From positions 1 through 38,548 of the forward strand of contig CALEAV010000016.1 in NCBI GenBank assembly GCA_937943575.1: a stretch of DNA of 38,548 nucleotides, written 5' to 3'. Each line of letters opens with the position of its first letter. Within the stretch, counting starts at the first letter, position 1. Of the stretch, positions 15,803 through 18,079 are shown piece after piece. The position numbers and the translations under genes are program-made. A model generated the notes under the pieces. That model was not told the DNA's origin and did no database searches. It was given only the letters and a program-made list of their open reading frames with translations. This DNA is from an uncultured bacterium (GTDB taxonomy: Bacteria > Desulfobacterota > Desulfobaccia > Desulfobaccales > 0-14-0-80-60-11).

Positions 15803-16840
15803 TCATGAATTCCGGTGTCGGAGCCGGTAATGGGACACCTGCCACTCCTCGCCCCCACGGTAACCCCAGAGCTCCGCGCAGGCCAGGAAAAAGAGGCGCC
15901 AGCGCCTGAGCCAGCGGTCCGCTGCGGCGGTGCCGTAACAATCCCGGAAAATCCCCCGGATCTCCTCCCGGTGGGCGTCCAGGTTGGCCAGCCAGGCCGC
16001 GGCGGTGCGCTGATAGTGCCGGCCGTTCACCCGCCAGTGGCCCTCCACCACCAGGTCCTCCTGGCAGTGGAGGAGAAGGTCGTCCGAGGGCATCATGCCG
16101 CCGGTGAAGAAGGTGCGGCCCAGCCAGTCCGCCGCGCCCGTGGTCTCAAAGAGGTAGGCATACCGCCTGTGGCTGAAGACGTGAACGAAGAGCCTCCCCT
16201 CCGGCTTCAGCCAGGCGGCCACCCGTTTTAAAACCTCCGGCCAGTTGCGCAGGTGCTCGAACATCTCCACCGAGACGATGCGGTCAAAGGTCCGGCCGGG
16301 GGCAAAGTCGTTCATGTCCGCCGTGGCCACCTCCACCTGAGGAAGTCCTCGGGCAGCGGCCCGCCGGCGGATGAACTCCCCCTGGGGGCGGGAGTTGGAG
16401 ACCGCCAGCATCCGGGCCCGGGGAAAATGCTCCGCCGCCCATAGGGTGAAAGAGCCCCAGCCGCAGCCCAGATCCAGGATGTCCAGACCGTCTCTCAGGT
16501 CGGCCCGCCGGGCGGTGAGAGACAGCATGGCTTCCTCCGCTTCATCCAGGGAGGTGCCCCCTGGGGGCCAGGAGCAGCAACTGTATTTGAGCCGCCGCCC
16601 CAACACGTGCTCAAAAAAGGCGGGCGGCAGTTCGTAATGCTGCTCATTGGCGGCCCGGGTGGCCACCGCAATGGGGCTGTGCCGCAGATCCGTGAGAAAG
16701 CGTTGCAGGTGCTCCCCCTCTGCCGCCCGCTCCCGGCGGGCCTCCTTGGCCAGACGCCGGCGGCAGAGGGCCCGGATGCCCACCCGCACCAGGGGATCGG
16801 GGATAAGGCCCCGTTCCGCCAGCTCCATCAGCACTCTCAT
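15803..16840 (-). CDS. CFA-family SAM methyltransferase, coclaurine N-methyltransferase-like
   Basis: A 345-residue class I methyltransferase of the Mycolic_acid/CFA synthase family, different from the cfa at 12942. Seen: [40 protein letters not shown], the SAM motif [39 protein letters not shown] and [20 protein letters not shown] with the catalytic Glu. The SNSxxQ and VEMFEHxRNW patterns group it with proteins resembling plant coclaurine N-methyltransferase rather than classic cyclopropane synthases. The acceptor could be an unsaturated lipid or an amine; sequence alone does not decide. Its ATG overlaps the DUF1295 stop (ATGA). With DUF1295 and the rhodanese it forms a minus operon that converges on the other lipid genes. 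Confidence 0.88.
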
Positions 16841-17583
16841 GGCCGCCGCTTGGGGAACCAGGGGATGAAGGCGCTGGTGATCTCCTGGTATTCCCGATAC
16901 TCCGGGCGCCGCTCACCGATGTCCTTTTCCAGCAGCACCACCCCGGAGACTTTGAGGAGGAGGAAGGTGATGACCAGGGGACTGATGAGGGCCCAGCCGC
17001 CCCCCGGCGTCGCCAGGGCGATGAGAAAGAGGCCCCACCACATGAGGGCTTCGCCGAAGTAGTTGGGGTGGCGGGAGTAAGCCCACAAACCCCGGTTCAT
17101 GACCCGCCCCCGATTGGCCGGGTCGGCCTTAAAGCGGGCCAGCTGCCAGTCGGCCACCGCCTCGAAGGCAAACCCCACGGCCCAAAGCCCGGCCCCCAGG
17201 AAATCCAGGGTGGTGCGGCGGGCCGTAAGGGCCGAGATCTGCCCCAGCTGCAGGCTTAAGGAAACCAGCCACAGAAGGACCGCCTGGGTGAGAAAGACCG
17301 TGAACAGACTCACCCACCAGAAGCTGGCCCCCCATTTGGCCCGCCAGGCCTGATAGCGCCGGTCCTCCCCTTTCCCCCGATTGCGCCAGGCGATATGCAC
17401 CGCCAGCCTGAGACCCCACAGGGTGGTGAGCAGAGAGAGAAGAAGCTTGCGCCCGGGGTAACCCGGGGTGAGGGCGAAAGTCAGCCAGGCGATGAGCACG
17501 AATCCCGGGCCCCAGAAGATGTCCGCCAGGCTGGCGTTGCGGGTGGGCAGGCTCAGAAGCCATACCCCCGCCATATACACCAC
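16837..17583 (-). CDS. DUF1295 membrane protein (steroid 5-alpha-reductase-like), start uncertain
   Basis: Integral membrane protein of the DUF1295/isoprenylcysteine methyltransferase-like superfamily: [17 protein letters not shown], then [20 protein letters not shown] and [13 protein letters not shown] (cofactor-binding motif), and [19 protein letters not shown] at the end. Six or so hydrophobic segments are seen. The GTG at 17583 gives 248 residues but cuts the first helix. The codons just upstream in this frame (LGLNLLAAV) continue the helix back to a TAA without any ATG. A good ATG at 17635 is in another frame; removing one T from the T7 run at 17613-17619 joins it, giving 265 residues. 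So either translation begins at an unusual start or the gene carries a one-base insertion. It precedes the CFA-like gene with a 4-bp overlap. Confidence 0.82.
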
Positions 17584-17650: not shown

Positions 17651-17980
17651 TCAGGGCTCCGGCGGGAGGATGGGCAAACCCGCCTCCTTCCAGGCGACCA
17701 CCCCTCCCAAAAGGGCCTTGGCATTTTTGAAGCCTTGCTTCTGATACTCCGCTGCCAGACCGGCAGAGGAATGCTCCTGGACTCAGGCACAGTAGAAGAC
17801 GATTTCCTGATCCTTGGGCAGACCAGCCACCCGGCTCTTGAACTCCCTCAAGGAGATAGCCCCCTCCAGGCGCATGGCCCGGAAGGCCTCGTCGCTGTCA
17901 TAGGCGCATACCAGCAGGCATTCCCCTGACTTGACCCGCGGGTAGACCTCTGCCGGTTTCACCCGGGTAACATCCGCCAT
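17651..17980 (-). CDS. Rhodanese-domain protein, probable selenoprotein (UGA = Sec at residue 66)
   Basis: A single rhodanese domain of 109 residues if UGA at 17785-17783 is read as selenocysteine. Before the UGA: VKPAEVYPRVKSGECLLVCA and LPKDQEIVFYCA. After it, the rest of the domain continues in frame (QEHSSAGLAAEYQKQGF, then AKALLGGVVAWKEAGLPI) to TGA at 17653-17651. Homologues I recall have FYCAC here, so Sec sits at a Cys position, two residues after the usual catalytic Cys (residue 64). A SECIS-like hairpin lies 10 nt after the UGA. The ATG at 17980 follows GAGGAGG. Ordinary gene calling would give a 65-residue fragment. It probably does sulfur/selenium transfer or redox chemistry. It is likely the first gene of the minus operon with DUF1295 (68 bp downstream). 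If the host lacks SelA/B/C, this would be a pseudogene. Confidence 0.82.
17746..17772 (-). promoter_or_regulatory. SECIS-like hairpin for selenocysteine insertion
   Basis: Read on the minus strand, starting 10 nt after the UGA: ATTCC, U/C mismatch, CTGCC, loop GGTCT, GGCAG, then GGAGT. That is two 5-bp helices separated by one unpaired U/C pair and closed by a 5-nt loop. The loop GGUCU, and an unpaired U on the 5' side below it, match the E. coli fdhF SECIS recognised by SelB. The loop starts 21 nt after the UGA, against 18 nt in fdhF, inside the usual bacterial range. It lies within the rhodanese coding sequence, as bacterial SECIS elements do. Confidence 0.78.
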
Positions 17981-18051
17981 AAGGATGTCCTCCTCTTTCC
18001 GACCGCACTGGGGAGCCGGGATGATTCTTCACTGTCAAAAATCATTACCGA

Positions 18052-18079
18052 AAAATAATCATGGCGTAAAGGAAGTCAA
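18052..18079 (-). promoter_or_regulatory. Candidate promoter for the rhodanese operon
   Basis: On the minus strand TTGACT (18079-18074) is followed after 16 bp by TATTTT (18057-18052), in an AT-rich stretch between the tRNA gene and the rhodanese start. A leader of about 65 nt would result. A second TTGACA just downstream (18038-18033) has no good -10. Confidence 0.38.

Follow-up and report, generated by a model that had tools for sequence, protein, structure and literature searches.

The window, by which we mean the whole stretch of 38,548 nucleotides analyzed here from an uncultured bacterium of the phylum Desulfobacterota, carries on its minus strand a gene for a single-domain rhodanese-fold protein in which an in-frame UGA at 17785-17783 very probably encodes selenocysteine (Sec). 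Judged from sequence comparisons, this protein and its relatives (the VCAY rhodaneses) are a new subfamily of the known C-x-U kind of rhodanese. The UGA is conserved and has domain sequence on both sides, which is the pattern that marks a bacterial selenoprotein. None of the refutation tests that could be run on sequences contradicted the Sec interpretation of the original prediction.

Features of the gene are listed in Table 1. Coordinates, Pfam searches and folding placed the gene, the UGA, the domain and the hairpin where they had been predicted. Gene callers had been expected to truncate the gene, and the mechanical ORF list indeed contains no minus-strand ORF of at least 80 amino acids covering it. 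When the first TGA is translated as Sec, this codon lies within the motif IVFYCAUVQEHSSAG. The readthrough protein matches Pfam Rhodanese PF00581 over residues 34-105 with 35.4 bits (gathering cut-off 22.2), its AlphaFold2 model is confident over the whole length (pLDDT 90.5) and Foldseek groups this model among rhodaneses, so that both score and fold assign it to PF00581. The rhodanese domains of E. coli GlpE and YgaP are alike in overall fold (Foldseek TM-score about 0.6-0.7) and are not known to have Sec or a C-A-U motif. Upstream of the gene lie a tRNA-Val gene and then a terminator-like hairpin, and a promoter-like match sits between this hairpin and the rhodanese gene (consensus matches only). 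On the same strand, 3' of the gene (window 15803-17583), are genes for a DUF1295 membrane protein and a cyclopropane-fatty-acid-synthase-like protein; no connection between these neighbors and the rhodanese was found.

Table 1. Features of the predicted Sec rhodanese gene (window positions) and the selD gene of the same genome (contig positions).
Feature	Position	Strand	Remarks
Predicted Sec-containing rhodanese gene	17651..17980	-	ATG (17980-17978) to terminal TGA (17653-17651); 109 amino acids with Sec66
In-frame TGA, predicted Sec66	17783..17785	-	Codon 66; motif FYC-A-U
Codon of presumed catalytic Cys64	17789..17791	-	Catalytic role inferred from rhodanese fold
Codon of Cys25 in V-C-A-Y	17906..17908	-	Position of D-V-R in ordinary rhodaneses
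Apical stem-loop CUGCC-GGUCU-GGCAG	17752..17766	-	Conserved part of SECIS-like element
Whole hairpin as originally drawn, with lower helix	17746..17772	-	Folding
Ribosome-binding site AGGAGG	17989..17994	-	8 nt 5' of ATG; from sequence
Sigma-70-like promoter match	18052..18079	-	Upstream of gene; consensus scan only, 9 of 12
selD (L010)	G000 contig C2:12650-13567		In-frame TGA

Homologues were sought in the genomes of 84,980 species from all phyla using peptide patterns that exclude the UGA position. All 15 homologues reaching across the codon carry TGA, and they come from Desulfobacterota, Planctomycetota (including Candidatus Brocadia), Nitrospirota, Synergistota and others. Strong matches were without exception TGA forms in a set of 395 genomes from the window's phylum. 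One or two TGAs were present in each match from the 396 genomes surrounding a Nitrospirota centre; the 392 genomes surrounding a Planctomycetota centre gave mainly matches with TGA and a few with none. A plasmid collection gave only matches below 60% identity. The distinct subfamily genes number 65, these being the genes accepted by a motif filter that itself demands Cys or Sec at the catalytic position. The Sec66 codon is TGA in 61 of them and TGC in four, and the active sites are C-x-U (47), U-x-U (14) and C-x-C (4). Because the same TGA recurs in so many distinct homologues from several phyla, a sequencing error, which the original prediction had called unlikely, can be excluded. One genome (G271) holds two divergent Sec rhodanese copies (L055 and L089). 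L068 and the matches in G1186 and G1015 contain TAA as well as TGA and could be frameshifted or decayed copies.

In all full-length homologues the frame continues beyond the codon and conserved residues follow it, as had been claimed for the window gene; no conserved stop is seen at this position. Three dN/dS comparisons between the window gene and the two relatives nearest to it give about 0.08, 0.25 and 0.18 for the part 3' of the UGA, and the part upstream lies in a similar range (0.10 to 0.18). The low values indicate that purifying selection acts on the downstream codons. Cys25 is shared by all 15 sequences of the alignment; L119 has Ile instead.

The hairpin AUUCC-U-CUGCC-GGUCU-GGCAG-C-GGAGU begins 10 nt after the UGA and has a minimum free energy of −15.6 kcal/mol. 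As a single-sequence fold it is not above chance (z = −1.04; 30 of 200 shuffles were at least as stable), so its significance comes from comparison across homologues. With columns numbered from the UGA, the apical five-base-pair stem joins 20-24 to 30-34. In 37 distinct relatives 97.8% of its possible pairs are formed, compared to a shuffled mean of 92.5 with 0 of 500 shuffles as high, and its covariation score (0.222 versus 0.103 when shuffled) lies above that of every shifted register. Both bases of the pair 21-33 fall on third codon positions; 34 of the 37 sequences have a Watson-Crick pair here, against 17.4 expected from shuffles, and the pair switches among U-A, C-G and A-U. The apical loop is mostly GGUCA or GGUCU, with G26 invariant in the 37 sequences, in keeping with the G-bearing apical loop of a bacterial SECIS hairpin directly 3' of its UGA. 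The GGUCU loop presumably resembles that of the E. coli fdhF hairpin. Two five-base-pair helices had been predicted, and of these the apical one is upheld by the covariation and by its fixed spacing from the UGA. The lower helix pairs in only 7 to 19 of the 37 sequences and was rejected as part of the conserved SECIS; this half of the drawn hairpin is thus particular to the window gene, and conservation is confined to the apical stem-loop.

An alignment with Cys-containing homologues had been proposed as a check, and it reveals exchange of Cys and Sec at the UGA position. Cys forms have TGC at this codon (L113, L115 and L116 with FYCAC, L124 with FYCRC) and were found only around the Planctomycetota centre. 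They share the VCAY subfamily and active-site layout with the window protein but differ in having TGC in place of TGA and in lacking the hairpin. The FYCAC relatives named in the original prediction are therefore real, though they make up only a small part of the subfamily (FYCAC in 3 of 65 genes, FYCRC in 1 of 65). At least four of the five apical pairs are kept in 61 of 61 Sec genes versus none of the four Cys genes (Fisher p 1.5e-6, not corrected for relatedness). In Planctomycetota and Nitrospirota, SelB was found in 26 of 30 TGA-form genomes versus one of four Cys-form genomes (G987); the other three Cys-form genomes have no SelB match. The TGA-form genomes without SelB at the threshold used (G947, G955, G499 and G766) may be incomplete. 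For the all-phyla carriers, SelB scored over the cut-off in nine of ten and the tenth has a partial match. SelB is also present in 25 of 25 carriers tested from the window's phylum, but since it exceeds the cut-off in 60 of 63 genomes of that phylum, nearly all non-carriers included, the comparison with carriage does not discriminate there.

The genome that contains the window has the complete gene set for making selenocysteine. All four components named in the original prediction are present: selA (618.6 bits), selB (351.9 bits), selD (365.2 bits) and the tRNA-Sec gene selC (73.8 bits, anticodon TCA). Note that selD has its own in-frame TGA (RAAGUAAKLPPG), which makes its product a second predicted selenoprotein of this genome.

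Two explanations dispense with Sec. If the UGA were a true stop, through sequencing error or decay to a pseudogene or because a short 65-residue product is made, neither the unremarkable fold of the hairpin on its own nor the gap in the mechanical ORF list would be surprising. We nevertheless consider this explanation highly improbable because 61 of the 65 distinct genes, drawn from several phyla, share this TGA, because dN/dS stays at 0.08-0.25 beyond it and because the Sec machinery of the genome is complete. Reading of the UGA as some other amino acid, by near-cognate readthrough or in a reassigned code, deserves equally little credence: UGA also terminates this gene, tRNA-Sec and SelB are encoded in the genome, the residue that replaces Sec in relatives is Cys, and the hairpin is lost where the codon is TGC.

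The C-x-U arrangement, described in the original prediction as unusual for a rhodanese, is not unprecedented. A C-x-U rhodanese is listed in two reviews, as form 3 in PMC13188914 and as COG0607 form 2 in PMC9312934, and the kind is already recognized in NCBIfam as NF041203 (rhodanese_LYCAU, “rhodanese-related (seleno)protein”). The window clade is, however, separate from these and carries VCAY. Its protein resembles NF041203 in the rhodanese fold, in the Y-C-x-(U/C) motif (present as FYCAU) and in having a UGA followed by a GC-rich apical hairpin. Its score against the model is only 58.9-59.2 bits, aligned from residue 33 on, and membership was rejected at the curated cut-off of 115; relatives of the window protein score 70 (L022) and 44 (L035). 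Sampled genes that pass the model (L070, L071, L082, L086, L087 and L090; 123-175 bits) have DVR where the window clade has VCAY, and several passing genes start with a signal-like hydrophobic segment. In a tree of 58 rows, in which few columns and a quick method limit the finer forks, a branch with SH-aLRT 98 sets the window group apart from the remaining rows.

Other known Sec rhodaneses likewise have Sec within the rhodanese domain, as UxxS (form 1), UxxG (forms 2 and 4) or UxxxxU (TsoB) (PMC13188914). The window protein differs from these in that its predicted Sec lies two residues past the presumed catalytic Cys. A VTT membrane domain is fused N-terminally to the rhodanese in L083 and L088 (C-x-U) and in L077 (C-x-C). 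These fusions have the same active-site motifs as the window subfamily but differ in the VTT domain and in carrying DVR or DLR. Rhodanese domains of the wider set score 82.5 bits (L077) and 107 bits (L069) against NF041203.

While the window gene itself is C-x-U, the codon of the presumed catalytic Cys is also TGA in 14 of the 65 genes (L035, L056, L061, L092, L093, L096, L099, L100, L101, L102, L119, L121, L123 and L127). This TGA lies six bases 5' of the conserved one, and a single hairpin follows both. On the tree, which is poorly resolved, the U-x-U state needs about nine changes and has therefore probably arisen or been lost repeatedly. Two genes outside the VCAY clade (L087 and L129) are U-x-U as well. 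A 2026 review of prokaryotic selenoproteins has no U-x-U entry, and no U-x-U or selenenylsulfide rhodanese was found in the open-licence papers searched. We lean, with some reserve, towards an unnamed multi-phylum VCAY subfamily in which the catalytic nucleophile has changed to Sec several times, in which two UGAs six bases apart are read with one SECIS hairpin, and whose diselenide or selenenylsulfide sulfur-transfer site is undescribed in the literature searched.

If the UGA is read as Sec via SelB, tRNA-Sec and the downstream hairpin, translation would end at the terminal UGA and the active-site loop would be Cys64-Ala65-Sec66. By analogy to other rhodaneses, Cys64 would accept sulfane sulfur from polysulfide, thiosulfate or a low-molecular-weight persulfide. 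Sec66, ionized at neutral pH, would then attack, releasing sulfide or handing the sulfur on, and the resulting Cys64-Sec66 selenenylsulfide would be reduced by cellular thiols, by thioredoxin or perhaps by Cys25. This cycle would make the protein a persulfide-reducing or thiol-redox variant of rhodanese, not a plain sulfurtransferase. We offer this chemistry as a tentative proposal whose chances fall somewhat short of even. The gene neighborhood was rejected as a clue to function: the 82 neighbor proteins from sampled loci include no family common to more than three members, and therefore no pathway can be inferred from it.

Two other roles are compatible with Sec at this codon. The protein could be a thiol:disulfide or peroxide-type redox protein built on the rhodanese fold that transfers no sulfur, a possibility that we rank nearly as likely as the sulfane-sulfur model, if still on the doubtful side. 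In its favor, redox proteins make up the majority of selenoproteins whose function is known (PMC9312934). The resemblance of C-x-U to a redox pair and the replacement of the D-V-R of ordinary rhodaneses by V-C-A-Y point the same way. Against it, the presumed catalytic residue is Cys or Sec in 65 of 65 genes, as sulfane-sulfur chemistry expects, although the motif filter demands one of these residues there. Rhodaneses can bind selenium, and a carrier of reduced selenium, for example to SelD, would also agree with the presence of SelB in nearly all carriers of the Sec form. This role is unlikely, since Cys forms persist in the three genomes where SelB was not found and most SelB genomes of the sampled phylum do not have the gene.

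For the proposed sulfane-sulfur chemistry, C-x-C, C-x-U and U-x-U sites on one scaffold provide a natural series in which the role of Sec can be followed; the paired UGAs, in turn, offer a case in which to ask whether two Sec codons can share a single SECIS element. Due to the rarity of Cys homologues (4 of 65), searches that start from Cys/UGA pairs are likely to miss the subfamily. It also lies beyond the reach of NCBI's current model, and its members are therefore at risk of truncation in public genomes.
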